Position numbers and translations under genes: made by a program
Notes under the pieces: model-generated
Databases searched by the model: none
Told to the model about the DNA's origin: nothing
What the model saw: only the letters and a program-made list of their open reading frames with translations
Source of the DNA: Perkinsus olseni
Lineage: Eukaryota; Perkinsozoa; Perkinsida; Perkinsidae
Assembly (NCBI GenBank): GCA_013115135.1
Contig: JABANP010000044.1
Location: 62,001 to 126,000 of the forward strand
Reading direction: 5' to 3'
DNA: 64,000 nt
Shown here: positions 6,261-59,614 of the stretch, one piece after another
Layout of the letters: each line of letters opens with the position of its first letter
How positions within the stretch are numbered: position 1 is the first letter of the stretch

Positions 6261-6302
6261 GTGTAAAAGTGCCGCTGCAGGGATTCGAACCGGATACTCT
6301 TG
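6261..6302 (+). repeat. tRNA T-arm-like remnant
   Basis: The text GGGATTCGAACC lies in a 41-nt stretch beginning GT and ending in CAG. On the minus strand it reads GGTTCGAATCCC, the invariant tRNA T-loop/B-box core, but the T-stem pairs poorly and no full cloverleaf can be drawn. It is therefore a tRNA-derived remnant or intron element, not a tRNA gene. Confidence 0.45.
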
Positions 6303-25845: not shown

Positions 25846-26519
25846 TCACTAAATTCTCTGTCCTAATCACTAAATCTAGCGCGCGCCCAACTGATCGATA
25901 TCTGCGCGCTTTCCTACTGCTGCCGCCTCTTCCGGACTCCGGAATCCGGAGCCGATTAAAGTGCCCTGGGGTAACCCTTTGGATTTATGGTTGCCTTGGG
26001 TAACCAGAAACGGTTTCTGATTGCCTTGGGTAACCGTTCGGGTTCCTGGTTGCGCGCGCCCAACTGATCGATACCTGCGCGCTTTCTCACTGCTGCCGAT
26101 TCCTCCGGACTCCGGAGCCGATTACATTGCCCCTTCCGGTTTCTGGTTGCCTTGGGTGAGCCCTCGGGTTTCTGGCTGCCTCGGGTAACTCTTCCGGTTT
26201 CGGGTTGCCTTAGGTAACTCTTCCGGTTTCGGGTTGCCTTGGGTAACCCTTCCGGTTTCGGGTTGCCTTGGGTAACCCTTCCGGTTTCGGGTTGCCTTGG
26301 GTAACCCTTCGGGTTTCTGGTGGCAATTCTTTTGTTTTTCTGCTGAGAGCCACCTTCATCACCATGCCGTGAGCGGAACATGTTCGCTGGTTGTATACGA
26401 TGGGCCATGTGCGCTATGAGCAGTGCAAAACGCAACACGTGCCCGGGGAAAGCGGCGCGCAGATATCGATCAGTTGGGCGCGCGCTACTTTTAGTGATTA
26501 GGACAGAGAATTTAGTGAC
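25846..26519. mobile_element. Fold-back / MITE-like element with long terminal inverted repeats
   Basis: The left arm (about 25846-25915) begins GTCACTAAATTC and contains CCAACTGATCGATATCTGCGC. The right arm (about 26450-26519) is its near-perfect reverse complement and ends GAATTTAGTGAC. Arms are about 65 bp. A further direct copy of the inner arm (CCAACTGATCGATACCTGCGC) lies at 26056-26085. The interior is a minisatellite and no transposase is present. No clear target-site duplication was found. It is best read as a non-autonomous fold-back element; the long minus ORF across it is an artefact of the repeats. Confidence 0.7.
26185..26325. repeat. 29-bp tandem repeat inside the fold-back element
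   Basis: About five copies of a 29-bp unit built around GGTAACCCTTCCGGTTTCGG plus GTTGCCTTG, with more degenerate copies on both sides (25970-26055 and 26145-26185). As 29 is not a multiple of three, a coding role is unlikely. Confidence 0.8.
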
Positions 26520-27149
26520 GTGCCGTGCAAAGTCCAAAGCTAGTTGGCACCAACTCCTCACCTGCCTTTGATGGTGCAGGGTCGAACTAGCATGATGCAT
26601 GCTGGCTAAATTTATAGTGGACGCTCAGGATTCTCTGCTAGTGTATGGCCAACATGCGGGATTCGGCTGGTTTGAGCGAGGAACTGCTCACCGGTGCCAA
26701 GCAGCAACTGCAGGCCACATTCGGCCAAAATCCCGGTACGAGGATCCTGGTTACGGAATACCAGGTAGTATGAGAGGTGCTGGCAGTAGCTCTTGGTGGT
26801 ACTCTTCCCCTGTGCGCTCATATGAATCGCTATGTTAATGGGTTATTGGTAATACGGTATTGCCATTGGTAGTAGTAGATCCCGGAGGGACAGCTGTACT
26901 GGTTGTAAAATGTTATTCTCCACTGTTACTTCTCAATGCTGCGCAGGATCGGAAAGCCCTTACTCAGGCTATTGTGAGTGTGTAGCACCTCCTCTTAGGC
27001 TGGTCTACTAAGCGAAAGCCAGTTCGATCAAGCATATGATTGTCAACTCGAGCATGATAACGGCAAATACAAGGATGGCCAGAGTCGGATGGAAGTCAAA
27101 GATGCGGTCTACGCTCTTGTCTGTAATACTTCAACCTGTACCCCTTACA

Positions 27150-30075
27150 CCATTTCAGTGGTCTTCGTCGATCACCGTCAACTCAGTTTTATTCAGGCAC
27201 GGCTATTGGGGCCGGCGTTCTCACTCTACCCTACGCCTTAGCTCAAAGCGGGCTGATCGCAGGTGAGAGGCTGATCAAGACGTTATCTACGAACCTCCGG
27301 TCAGGGTTTCAGCTCTGATGATGCGTTGTACGTGGGTTTTCATGAAACTTACGCTCGTTCGTCAGAACTCTGGCTCCACCAGGGAAATATCAGGAAGTTT
27401 GCTTCCTCTAGCCGCGGGGATTACGTCGTATGTGTCGCCCCGCCGTCGGCCAGCCTCGAACTCTCAAGTATCTTTCTCAGGAACTTTAATCTTGCTTGGC
27501 ATTGGAGTGCTGAGCTCTTACGCTGGCGAGTTGCTCGTAGCAGCATCCAAACGTAGGTCTATAGCAGTAGGATTTCGCGCTTCACCACGTGCTCTAGGTA
27601 CTGGAATGACGAGCTACGGGACGCTTGCCCGCGCAACCTGCGGGAAATGGGCGGAGTTACTTACGTCCGCCTGTATCGCTATAAGTAAGAACCTCTCGCC
27701 GGGGATCGAACCTGAGACCTTCAGTGTTCAGCAACATGGCTGGTTATGGGCTCTTACATGATCGTCATGGCGGATATGATGGTGCCTGTTCTGGAATGGA
27801 TCATTCCTGGCATCACGGGGTTCGCCGGCGGCTATTCGGCTCTCCGCCTCTGGGTAGTGTTAATGACGCCGCGTTGTAGTCCGTGGAAAATTACTGCGCG
27901 ACTGGACGTTTTTGGTGAGACCTAAGTGCCATTCACGTGGTTCGCGCATGATGAGGGCATGAGTCTTTTCCCTTGCACCCGGAAGATAGATATATCTCTG
28001 CTCTCCGCGAAGAATTTTTCTGCTGTTAGTCTGTCTATCGAAGGCTTCTGAGTCAGAAGTCAGAAGTTCTGACCTGAGTAGATCATCTACTGTAGATGTC
28101 TGCCTACCAATTTCAAAGTCGTTCGTACTGGACTGTGATGGTTTGATCCTCTTATTCACTTCCTCTTCCCTCTGCTGAACGGATTGCTGTTCTGCATCGT
28201 TTCCGTGGCTGAAATCAGCTGAGAAAGATTTGGAGCGGTCATCCGACGGAATTTTCGGAATTCAGGTCGGAAGATTTGCCACGAGGTTCATTCTTTGCAG
28301 GTCCAAGTTCTCTCCCTAGTCGTGGTGTTCCCATATTGTCTGCGGGATAATATGAGCGGTTTCAAATGGATTGCTGTTCTCTCGATCGTTGCTATGCTGG
28401 TATGTGGGTGATCGATAGGTCCCTGGTTCGAATCCGGCTGCTGTGTTATTTCAGGCACTTACAGCAGCTGTTGTTATTCTGTCAATAATTCGCATTATAG
28501 AAAAACCCTGTTCAATGGGTCCCCCCTGCGGAGCCCTCGGAGACAGTGAGTAGATATTCGCCATCCAGTGTACCACGCCGGGATCGAACCTTCGCCTTCT
28601 TCAGGTTTCTGCTGTCTCGATTAAATACTTCAGTGGCACTTCATCATTCCTCGCCATATCAATAAGTAGCGTTAGTTATCTGTGCCACTTCAATGTAAGG
28701 ATAACTTTCTGTCTATGACTTACCAGTTTTGGCAGATCCTCCCAGTCGTCGTAGAGGAAATGCACGCGCCCACAAAGAGCCGTTCGAACGAGGTAGCCTC
28801 TCTCCCCGAATTGTTCCCCAGGTTTACTGCAACTTCAGGCCATACGGTGGACCATGGTTTCGGTCGCCATCATGTATGTGGCATTTGCAGTGTTCGGGTA
28901 AGTCACGATGAGGTGGTACCCATCACCTGCCCTTGCCGCTGCTGATGGTATCGAGCATACGCGTTGCTGATTTTTCAGGTACCTGTACGCCTATGACATG
29001 CCAGGTGGCGTCAGTGGCGATATTCTCCTCAATTTCCCTAGTGACAGTACTATTCTCACTCGGGTTCGACTCCGCGTTGAAGCATTTCTTTCCCAGGTAT
29101 TCTAGTTAATATAGTGAGGATTGGCCTCTTCCTCACCTTGGACCTGAGCTATCCCCTTTTGGTCCTACCCTGTTATCAGTCTCTCGAGAGTTTGGTGGCA
29201 GAGCTGCGGGGATATGAGGTTGGTCATTCAAGGAGGAGCTTCAGCAGCAAACTTTGGAGTAAGGGGAAGCAGTTTGATTGTGCGGTTTCAATTGTAACTG
29301 CCTGATATTATCGTCGATCTGGTCGGCTTTGGTGTCGTGATGAAATCACGCTTGAAATTGGCGGGCATAATCTGCTGAGTCAAGTTTACGCTTCTTTGGT
29401 GTGCGGAGGCTCATTCCGAGAGCCTCAGAATGAGAGTGCTCTTGCTCTCATGATAGTGGTTCTCCCCTGCCTTGCTCGTTCCGTTGTACTGCATGTGTCT
29501 CTGTATTAACCACGTCATGCAAATCCCCCACACTCTTTCGAGAAGTTGACGTAGGACCACCTCGGACTCGAACCTGATATCACTCGTTATCCTGTTAATC
29601 CCTCGATGTCGCGCGAGAGAGTCTCGTCTGGCTTGTATGAACTACTGCCTTCAGATGTAGCAGAGATTTTGCTATTGTGCGTTACATCGCTGGCCTGTGC
29701 TATCGCAGTGCCTCACATCCAGGTGAGTGCGGACCCACTGTTCACCGGGCTTACAAACTTTTGCCTGTCAGGTCGTTTTCGCCTTCCTCGGCTCCACTGT
29801 TTGCAATATCATCGCATTCGTCCTGCCACCGTTGTTTTTCGTCAATGTAACTTCATGAGTGCCTCTATGCTTCTATCTTGCTTCATTTCTCAGTCAAGAC
29901 CCGCCGGATCTGCTCTGTGGAACAGGAGGAACGCCTCGGCCGTGCTACTCTTCGCTCTGGGAGTTTTTCTCGTCATCACTTGTACAGGGGTAAGCATGAT
30001 CTCCACCACCATGCTTTTCATGGGAGGTTGCCTCAGGTTCAGATAGCAAATATCAACCAATTATTGAGCAAGTGA
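27150..30075 (+). CDS. AAAP (SLC38/AVT-type) amino-acid transporter, 12 or more exons
   Basis: Well-supported exons: about 27200-27262, 27481-27552, 27598-27684, 27732-27853, 28301-28399, 28455-28545, 28605-28693, then about 28740-28800, 28838-28900, 28980-29040 and 29097 onward, with last exons near 29680-30075. Helices in order: GTAIGAGVLTLPYALAQSG (the AAAP TM1 signature), TLILLGIGVLSSYAGELL, TWLVMGSYMIVMADMMVPV, VQVLSLVVVFPYCLRDN, LTAAVVILSIIRIIEK, SSVSYLCHFN, AIRWTMVSVAIMYVAFAVFG, ILLNFPSILVNIVRIGLFL, EILLLCVTSLACAIAVPHIQ, VVFAFLGSTVCNIIAFVLPP and SAVLLFALGVFLVITCTG, with the stop at 30075. It probably moves amino acids with H+ or Na+. The first exon is unknown and one phase (28545/28605) is unreconciled. 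Several introns carry tRNA-like motifs. Confidence 0.9.
27685..27731 (+). other. 47-nt intron containing an antisense tRNA T-arm motif
   Basis: The borders are fixed by phase: CIAI ends before GTAAGAACC, and TTWLVMGSYMIV resumes after TGTTCAG. Inside is GCCGGGGATCGAACCTGAGA followed by CCTTCAGTGTTCAG; its complement reads like the anticodon-to-T-arm half of a tRNA. Confidence 0.75.
28400..28454 (+). other. 55-nt intron containing a sense tRNA T-arm motif
   Basis: The intron starts GTATGTGGG and ends TATTTCAG. It contains CCTGGTTCGAATCCGGC, a T-stem/loop with four pairs around TTCGAAT. No complete cloverleaf fits. Confidence 0.7.
28546..28604 (+). other. 59-nt intron containing an antisense T-arm motif
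   Basis: The intron runs from GTGAGTAG to TTCTTCAG and holds CGCCGGGATCGAACCTTCGC, the same arrangement as the intron at 27685-27731. The upstream and downstream exon phases did not match in my reading, so one border may be shifted. Confidence 0.5.
29041..29096 (+). other. 56-nt intron containing a sense T-arm motif
   Basis: Phase-fixed: the exon ends LLNFPS and resumes ILVNIVRIG. The intron GTGACAG..TTTCCCAG contains CTCGGGTTCGACTCCG. Confidence 0.7.
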
Positions 30076-57897: not shown

Positions 57898-58917
57898 TCA
57901 AGACCGTGACCGATGGCCGCCATAATGAGGAGCCTTCCTTGTGTGCTGTGTGGGACCGGGGAAGGGCATCTCTTTGCCCTCTACGAACCATAAGGGACGA
58001 TACTCCGGTATCGACACGTAGTTTACGGGGGAGTTGCGGTAGTGGTTAATGTTCGCATCGAGACCTTGGATGCGGGAGAAGCCCGTCTGGCAGACTTTAA
58101 GAGAATTAAATCCCTCAAGCTTGTAGCCCTCGAAGGCGTTCATAAACTCCATCGCCGCGTCATGGTTCATGAAGTTGACAAATGCGTACCCCATGTTGCA
58201 GCGGTTTCGGAAGTCGATCGGGAGGTAGAAGAAATTGAATTTTGTATCGAAACCTCGCGCCCGGATGACGTCCAGGAGCATCCTCTGAGTGTACTTGTTG
58301 GGGATGTTCCGGAGCATCACTGTCGTCTTCTTTTCTGCAGGCATGTGACGGGTAGAGTAGTGATCTCTATCTTCCATTTTAGATCGTTGTCGCCGCCCGC
58401 TCCGATCGACTTCAGGCGTTTCACGTGGATCCTCTTCAACGACCATCACCAACTCCTCTTCCCCCTCTTCCTCAACTCTCGGTGGAGGGTCCTCCTCGAC
58501 AACCAAAACCAGGTCATCGGCAGCGTCGGGGCTTCGGGGATGAGAAAAACCGAAGGCTTCGTCAACCGCGACGCTTTCTTCTCGCCCGCCGAGACTGCCA
58601 AGCCGCACTCGCATACGATTGCTCAGCTCAAGACACTCGCTCTGAGACCGATAACGCGGGCTCATGAGCACCGAAGCCTCGTCGGACTCGTTAGCAGAAT
58701 AAACGCTTGCAGCCAATCTCGGAGATCCAGTGAAGAACTCGTCCTCAACGGTGAAGTGCAAAAAGGTGTTGAAGTTCTCCACGCGGACAGAGGACGGCGA
58801 AACGTCGGATGCCTGGTCGAAGCTGCCCGGGGAAAGGCATCTGATCGGCGGTAGAGTCGGCGGTCGCCGAGGACTAGACTGGCCTGCTGACGTGGTTGAC
58901 GGGGATCTGCTGCTCAT
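57898..58917 (-). CDS. Mei2-type RRM RNA-binding protein
   Basis: ATG at 58917 (MSSRSPSTTSAGQSSPRR) gives about 339 residues in one exon. The first half is low-complexity and acidic (LVLVVEEDPPPRVEEE). The C-terminal half is the Mei2 RRM3 (RRM_2) domain: KKTTVMLRNIPNKYTQRMLL, FDTKFNFFYLPIDFRNRCN, MGYAFVNFMNHDAAMEF and LKVCQTGFSRIQGLDANINH. The RNIPNK and NMGYAFVNF words are the RNP2- and RNP1-like motifs of this subfamily. In fission yeast and plants Mei2 proteins control meiosis and differentiation through RNA binding. The frame stays open upstream to 59247, so an earlier start or first exon is possible. Confidence 0.93.
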   Translation of the reverse strand: MSSRSPSTTSAGQSSPRRPPTLPPIRCLSPGSFDQASDVSPSSVRVENFNTFLHFTVEDEFFTGSPRLAASVYSANESDEASVLMSPRYRSQSECLELSNRMRVRLGSLGGREESVAVDEAFGFSHPRSPDAADDLVLVVEEDPPPRVEEEGEEELVMVVEEDPRETPEVDRSGRRQRSKMEDRDHYSTRHMPAEKKTTVMLRNIPNKYTQRMLLDVIRARGFDTKFNFFYLPIDFRNRCNMGYAFVNFMNHDAAMEFMNAFEGYKLEGFNSLKVCQTGFSRIQGLDANINHYRNSPVNYVSIPEYRPLWFVEGKEMPFPGPTQHTRKAPHYGGHRSRS

Positions 58918-59614
58918 CACTAGCAAAATCGCGGGAGCCTCAAATAACACTGAAATGGTGAGAATAGGATCGTTACAAATCGTGACTAAGTCGGAAGCCA
59001 ACTCAGTGGAAACTCCGTAAAGTCCATGAGAGACGATCGACGCATCGAAGCCTGAATCAGAACTTCGAACTCCATCCAAACCGATACGCTCGTTTAAGCC
59101 GATGATTAACACTCGAAAAGAATTTCGAAGAGCGATGCAAATTTTCGGAAAAACTCTTTCCGTTTCGAACCTGACCGGAGAAATCGTCCGCAGCAACTTG
59201 AGTTCGAACCTTCTCGTAATACCGTTGGAAGTCGCAGTAATATACACCGTTGAACTACTGGAAATTAAGAAATTCCTGGCTGTCCGTTTCCGTCGAAAAC
59301 CTACGCAGATGAGGTAGTATCACAGTAGATTTATAATTATCTTCGAAGCAATCATCGCGAGAGGTTTCGAGAGTTCAGAATACGGGCACCGAACACTCCT
59401 GAAGAAGGGAAAGAGAAGTGACGCCGGTATTCTCCTTCGTCGTCGGGTCAGAGACAACTCAAAGAAGAACTTGAAATCTTGCTCTCTTGAGATTCCTTAC
59501 GTGGATCGATTTTGGCTGAGCCGGCTATTCATTTTCCTTCTTCAACGCGCTAGATACGGGATGTAGGATATATAGCATTCATCTCAGTTAAGAGTTATCT
59601 AGCTTCATCCCAGT

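Follow-up and report, generated by a model that had tools for sequence, protein, structure and literature searches.

Short interspersed elements (SINEs) derived from tRNAs carry a B-box, GGTTCGANNCC, together with a T-run of the RNA polymerase III (Pol III) type. The extra TFIIIC (ETC/COC) sites of yeasts are isolated B-boxes without an A-box; they are few in number and are not introns. We analysed a window of 64,000 nt of Perkinsus olseni DNA (assembly GCA_013115135.1, contig JABANP010000044.1, positions 62,001 to 126,000 of the forward strand; coordinates below count from its first letter), in which introns of an amino-acid transporter gene contain a module of about 35 nt resembling the 3′ end of a tRNA. 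The closest described systems are introners which, like the sequences found here, are dispersed and related, form whole introns and occur in many unrelated genes of an aquatic protist, according to the main text of PMC9860276.

Introner families with median lengths down to 30 nt have been described, as have families without target-site duplications (TSDs) or terminal inverted repeats (TIRs), and most known families show signs of DNA-based propagation (main text of PMC9860276). The Perkinsus modules differ from these in consisting of tRNA-3′-end, B-box sequence, in having diverged copies that occur in both orientations, in reaching no fixed splice border and in being frequent outside predicted introns as well. 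The words 'tRNA', 'SINE' and 'Perkins' do not occur in the main text of that paper. Repeated introns are also present in Amoebophrya, a relative within Alveolata, whose introners have inverted repeats of 8–20 nt, border direct repeats of 3–5 nt and non-canonical splice motifs, according to the sections of PMC7789003 drawn on here. In contrast, the Perkinsus modules show no excess of such repeats, and their introns have GT–AG borders by construction of the search. In Alexandrium ostenfeldii, about 15% of the sampled genomic sequence was masked as tRNA-derived, with Pro, Ala and Phe tRNA names assigned through RepeatMasker, and the examined part of that text makes no link to introns (PMC3229502). 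A literature search, with subscription journals mostly outside it, returned nothing on tRNA-like introns of Perkinsus or on introners of tRNA-3′-end sequence; within the literature covered, this sequence type is new for introners. The reading we favour, at a probability of about one half, is that the module is an introner-like element that makes new introns and belongs to a new kind, one with a B-box and tRNA-3′-end sequence.

The transporter gene is of the AAAP type (PF01490) and lies at 27059–30075 on the + strand. Spliced alignment of P0001, a P. olseni FOL46 protein of 497 aa, to the window gave 16 exons and 15 introns, the latter totalling 1.7 kb; the aligned part runs up to the stop codon, and the model begins downstream of one or more additional 5′ exons. 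The exons match predicted proteins of P. olseni (P0003, 98% over 40% of the query; P0001, 87% over 84%) and P. marinus (75% over 84%), and a P. chesapeaki protein was matched too. The first-pass annotation, made from the window's sequence alone, had reported the core in at least four introns of this gene. All four were found, two in sense and two in antisense, together with a fifth core at 29564, and the alignment to P0001 bears out that the motifs are truly intronic. Exact GGTTCGANNCC cores are present in 5 of the 15 introns (two sense, three antisense); the whole window holds seven.

Spliced alignment places the first of these introns, of 47 nt, at 27685–27731 on the + strand. Its module is in antisense (27686–27720, − strand), with core GGTTCGATCCC at 27702–27712, and the donor GTAAGAA is the reverse complement of the module's TTCTTAC end. 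An intron of 55 nt (28400–28454, + strand), also placed by spliced alignment, carries a sense module (28417–28451, + strand; GGTTCGAATCC at 28425). The third intron, of 59 nt (28546–28604, + strand), has an antisense module (28564–28598, − strand; core GGTTCGATCCC at 28580–28590). The aligner had divided it into 28519–28546 and 28570–28604 because of a one-base frame shift shortly upstream; we treated this division as an artefact and set the boundary of a single intron by hand against P0001. In the exon before 28546, the transporter frame is one base off the P. olseni and P. marinus proteins, reflecting either an assembly error or a genuine frame shift. The fourth intron, of 50 nt by spliced alignment (29047–29096, + strand), contains a sense module (29055–29089, + strand; core GGTTCGACTCC at 29063) whose end, GCA-TTTCTTT, directly precedes the CCCAG acceptor. 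The borders first proposed for the other three stand, but the start proposed for this one, 29041, would remove two residues (in FPSDS) conserved in P0001 and P0002. The fifth core, GGTTCGAGTCC (29564–29574), lies in antisense with module-length surroundings (29548–29582, − strand) inside a longer intron of 396 nt (29259–29654, + strand; spliced alignment). Another module copy in the window, GGTTCGAATCC ... GGCACTTTT (6265–6299, − strand), is located away from predicted genes.

To describe the module, 104 distinct copies were gathered across the genome, mostly from pattern-search places listed from the first contigs onward. Excluding seven in ARAGORN tRNA predictions left 97, and excluding L075, a duplicate of L074, left 96; with 17 new copies, after exclusion of five tRNA genes, the set comprised 113. 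Aligning the 97 non-tRNA copies by the core, without additional fitting, gave a consensus from −8 to +26 with sharp limits and near-random flanks. Its order is AGGTC, C/G, C, G/A, GGTTCGA(T/A)(C/T)CC, C, G/A, C/G, three to four free positions, (C)GGCA and TTTTT. This layout matches tRNA positions 44–73 followed by a terminator-like T-run, with AGGTC corresponding to the variable loop and GGTTCGANNCC to the B-box/T-loop. At least four T in +22 to +26 were found in 39 of 96 copies, compared with 3.7% in nearby windows, and in 48 of 113 when the later copies are included. The modules thus share with tRNA-derived SINEs the B-box (by construction of the search) and the T-run, but they mostly lack an A-box, have no body or tail and no excess of TSDs, measure 35 nt and bear the T-run right after position 73. 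Unlike the yeast ETC/COC sites, they occur in thousands, with AGGTC and the T-run in tRNA spacing. Family structure among the copies is weak, with 23 pairs alike at ≥19 of 27 positions against four expected. The upstream flanks of L010/L102 and of L098/L106 are alike too, and some modules lie inside larger repeats.

The resemblance to tRNA does not extend to folding. The motif had been described as a T-arm with a partial T-stem, but the stem is not kept: pairs 49–65, 50–64 and 51–63 occur in 55, 55 and 36 of 113 copies, compared with 52.9, 54.7 and 45.3 under independence, and all three outer pairs occur together in 9 of 113 copies, compared with nine out of nine tRNA genes. A simulation in which 20% of copies were truly paired showed that such pairing would escape the block test but raise the pair counts (for pair 49–65, 67 against 54.9 expected, where 55 against 52.9 was observed). 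tRNA pseudogenes with an intact T-arm were considered and rejected, given pairing at chance level. A hairpin between the upstream flank and the 3′ strand was likewise rejected (≥6 bp in three of 96 copies, with 5.5 expected). A-box-like sequence at tRNA distance was near background in the 96 copies, with one clear case by pattern, L079. At that locus (G000:C14:71770-72270), a long near-perfect hairpin at 136–204 lies beside the tRNA-like copy with A-box and B-box; Rfam mir-5595 matches it far below threshold on both strands, and it is perhaps a foldback element.

Introns of unrelated genes share the module sequence. We joined the predicted flanking exons of 15 module introns and compared the products with Pfam, and in five a domain crosses the junction. 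In a kinesin (L024), the domain is read through the junction in the P-loop region once the module intron is removed, and in a dynein (L082) the AAA_6 domain spans it over 86 of 86 residues. Reading frames continue across the junction within HATPase_c (L095), SNF2 (L096) and SYF2 (L067). For L045 and L073, the hit extends a residue or two beyond the junction, and no Pfam family was found for eight of the 15 (L101, L074, L057, L018, L109, L037, L094 and L064). Homology-supported module introns number ten, in six genes. These data support the view that the modules are truly intronic, resemble the 3′ end of tRNAs and are members of a dispersed family.

A self-trained gene finder, run in local mode on 480-nt stretches, placed 39 of 97 copies in introns under relaxed settings and 26 of 97 under strict ones; of 600 random positions, 76 and 53, respectively, were assigned to introns. 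In whole-window mode it recovers one of the 15 transporter introns, and in local mode two of the five that carry a module, which makes the share of intronic copies uncertain. In an unbiased sample of 264 kb (the window and C1:1-200000), a profile based on 86 other copies gave no hit at a score of ≥16 in 82.6 kb of predicted exon, four in 31.4 kb of predicted intron and 16 in the remaining 149.9 kb. At ≥10, there were six hits in introns, 11 in exons and 26 elsewhere, compared with 1.0, 3.4 and 8.4 in shuffles.

The anatomy of 37 module introns was analysed: 33 predicted introns of at most 130 nt and four transporter introns. Their median length is 53 nt, compared with 50 nt in 318 other predicted introns. 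Similarity comes near both splice borders at a variable distance: the part of the intron not covered by the module measures 11–35 bases in 34 of the 37 and 57–88 in three. Predicted introns have a 5th percentile of 40 nt, and the part of PMC3101222 consulted gives 39 bp as the lower end for introns of P. marinus. A remainder of 11–35 bases is below this usual minimum and is therefore hard to read as an older intron plus a 35-nt insert. Introns 'created or colonised' by the element had been proposed; the sizes favour introns built around it. Among the 37, the module is in sense in 23 and in antisense in 14. Counted from the core start, sense introns have their donors between −9 and −45 and their acceptors between +23 and +102. 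The donors of antisense introns range from +13 to +45; in 12 of the 14 they lie at ≤+32, either within the module or no more than about 6 bases from its end.

The core is abundant genome-wide. We scanned 61.48 Mb in 968 contigs, with each pattern reversed but not complemented as control; the counts include true tRNA genes. GGTTCGAATCC was found 988 times (26 in the control), GGTTCGATCCC 1189 times (27) and GGTTCGANNCC 4458 times (602), so that the two commonest cores exceed the reversed pattern 38- to 44-fold. Allowing one mismatch, GGTTCGATCCC rises to 4791 against 751, and the intact-core count is therefore probably a lower bound. Twelve of 126 distinct cores examined were tRNA predictions or genes (7 of 104, three of them doubtful, and 5 of 22 later). 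In the window, the shorter motif of the first-pass annotation, TTCGANNC, is weakly enriched, with 65 occurrences against 49.5 expected and 2 of 100 shuffles reaching 65; the strong signal is that of the longer core against its reversed control. ARAGORN found no tRNA genes in the window, and Rfam reported no family there at the gathering score. Genome-wide, RF00005 scored just 63 of 7618 candidates. At least 11 copies of GGTTCGAATCC, spaced about 0.8–2.3 kb apart at G000:C25:60011-73489, resemble a tandem array. Clusters of similar tRNA genes were seen at G000:C778:264811-265975, C778:307743-310471 and C823:79646-81382, many of the genes spaced about 166–184 nt apart; of those examined, three from C778 are tRNA-Ile(TAT) and one from C823 is tRNA-Arg(TCT).

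Paralogues offer a view of one possible gain. Of the 14 AAA_6 copies besides that of L082, 12 have a single match stretch that includes the L082 site; among these are the dynein paralogues on C889 and C46, whose sequences run through it uninterrupted. Two stretches are less certain: that on C292 has 16 extra codons and a stop, where an intron is possible, and that on C501 has two stops. On C59 an intron lies one base from the L082 position, and on C298 one lies six codons upstream.

If the module is an introner-like element, a dispersed unit of about 35 nt would insert into the coding sequence of a transcribed gene, and the insertion would survive where it is spliced out, leaving a newly formed intron some 50 nt long. 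For a sense insertion, the donor could be a GT located at AGGTC or upstream of it, with the T-run acting as the pyrimidine tract before the AG. For an antisense insertion, the donor could be supplied by the complement of the acceptor/T-run end or adjoin it. The splice sites would thus come from host or element sequence, and the ancestry of the module would presumably lie in tRNA.

Several results weigh against this origin. The 37 introns leave out four predicted introns longer than 130 nt and the 396-nt transporter intron, and all introns considered here are predicted or based on homology. Direct repeats of ≥6 nt, as expected of TSDs, flank 8 of 113 copies against 7.9 expected, and inverted repeats (TIRs) occur in 10 of 113 against 8.7. 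Repeats at the splice junctions are little longer than in other introns (raw means of 2.51 and 2.09 bases). A burst of near-identical copies was not found among the copies gathered, the best pair agreeing at 22 of 27 non-core positions. No presence/absence difference was seen in 11 allele or duplicate pairs (10 copies, a small sample). At ≥16, the profile density outside predicted genes, 10.7 per 100 kb, is close to the 12.7 per 100 kb in predicted introns, with the unannotated DNA including missed introns such as 14 of the transporter's 15; at ≥10, the 11 exon hits exceed the 3.4 of shuffles. In the 264 kb, 5 of 383 predicted introns (about 1%) have a hit at ≥11. Beside this rate, the 5 of 15 in the transporter make that gene an outlier. 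A kinesin paralogue on C745 has an intron at the exact position of the L024 module intron, without a core as read from sequence. In the kinesins on C813 and C423 an intron lies two codons downstream, and in several paralogues (C813, C745 and C423) introns split the P-loop codons at two neighbouring positions. The P-loop may be a recurrent intron site, or the L024 intron may predate its module. Two other identities were tried and rejected: a decayed module in most introns, given the 5 of 383 and few intermediate scores, and a SINE or miniature inverted-repeat transposable element (MITE), as A-box, TSD and TIR are lacking.

The chief rival, somewhat unlikely in our estimation, is that the modules are functional B-box sites, binding TFIIIC as ETC/COC-like sites do or acting as minimal Pol III signals, which selection retained or formed in place, in introns and intergenic DNA, and which were never inserted. 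Their similar density inside and outside predicted genes fits this, as do halves that are internally linked but without detectable linkage to each other (see below), the pattern of a two-part binding motif. The 11 pairs also differ at 0 of 121 core positions, compared with 15 of 263 in the module flanks and 180 of 4267 in the rest. Some regions, such as G000:C8/C134, C10/C658 and C13/C790, are present twice at 90–98% identity, and the assembly therefore holds unmerged alleles or duplicates. However, an intact core was the criterion by which copies were selected, and we estimate that this halves the expected core differences to about three, so that zero is suggestive of selection on the B-box and no proof of it. 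The one-mismatch count, moreover, fits moderate decay of the core, and a B-box site would not need AGGTC, the GGCA end and the T-run at exact tRNA spacing. It is also conceivable, with a lower likelihood, that the modules entered pre-existing introns, where insertions are tolerated. This would account for high-scoring copies being absent from predicted exons and present in introns and elsewhere, for the coreless kinesin intron and for modules in some long introns (29259–29654 and the four predicted introns above 130 nt), but the bases left in 34 of 37 introns once the module is subtracted are too few for an ordinary intron here.

Decayed tRNA genes or classical tRNA-derived SINEs are very unlikely to explain the bulk of the examined copies. 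The layout is tRNA-like, an A-box is recognizable in a few (L079 by pattern, L021 and L031 by eye), and some collected cores did prove to lie in tRNA predictions or genes. Nevertheless, the A-box, T-stem and flanking-repeat tests largely refute this explanation, and the earlier 'SINE-like' label does not suit a unit of about 35 nt. In 20 loci RF00005 went unreported at E-values up to 1, the six Rfam hits there all being miRNA-like or plastid UTR families. The possibility that TTCGANNC is simply short and the genome rich in it is negligible: the bare motif is mildly enriched in the window, but the fold excess of the two commonest cores and the 35-nt consensus refute chance.

A further possibility starts from an oddity of the module itself and strikes us as distinctly improbable. 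In the 113 copies, mutual information is high within the 5′ half (z 20.9) and within the 3′ half (z 7.6), but linkage between the halves is undetectable (z 1.1; 137 of 1000 row shuffles score at least as high). This test repeats, with new loci, one on the 96 copies that likewise detected no link between the halves; the 17 new copies alone gave a z of 0.4, and a repeat test including the five tRNA genes gave 3.6. The modules might accordingly be chimeras of reverse transcription, in which the enzyme would copy pre-tRNAs from the U-trailer, stall at m1A58 and switch to another tRNA at GGTTCGA. Random joins of 3′ and 5′ tRNA pieces would then insert into exons in either orientation and become introns. 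Core position 58 corresponds to m1A58 in eukaryotic tRNAs, at which reverse transcriptase is known to stop. The idea draws on the 5′ side (tRNA positions 44–51) and the 3′ side (63–73) each being internally linked, with no detectable cross-linkage. Positions 59–60 bear on the proposed switch, as they fail to side cleanly with one half: they show linkage with both halves, stronger for the 3′ (z 5.5) than for the 5′ (z 3.4), and a sharp break at position 58 is therefore not established.

Two other features of the window were seen on the − strand. An open reading frame with repeated motifs of the RNPKGYPRQPETGRVTQG kind lies at 25956–26600. Another, of 449 aa (57898–59247), includes a part resembling the RRM at the C-terminus of Mei2-type proteins.

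The source of new spliceosomal introns is an old question. Above background, the genome of 61 Mb contains some 3,900 cores, a figure that includes true tRNA genes, and public proteins of more than one P. olseni strain, of P. marinus and of P. chesapeaki make the age, gain and loss of modules testable. That linkage between the halves is undetectable is a specific oddity that can be checked, and if the chimera idea were true, introns would be gained from RNA templates without a dedicated transposon sequence. If the modules are introner-like elements, few units that make introns would be as small and simple: 35 nt that supply most of an intron in either orientation. The modules would also tie Pol III signals, the B-box and the T-run, to a splicing signal, the pyrimidine tract.

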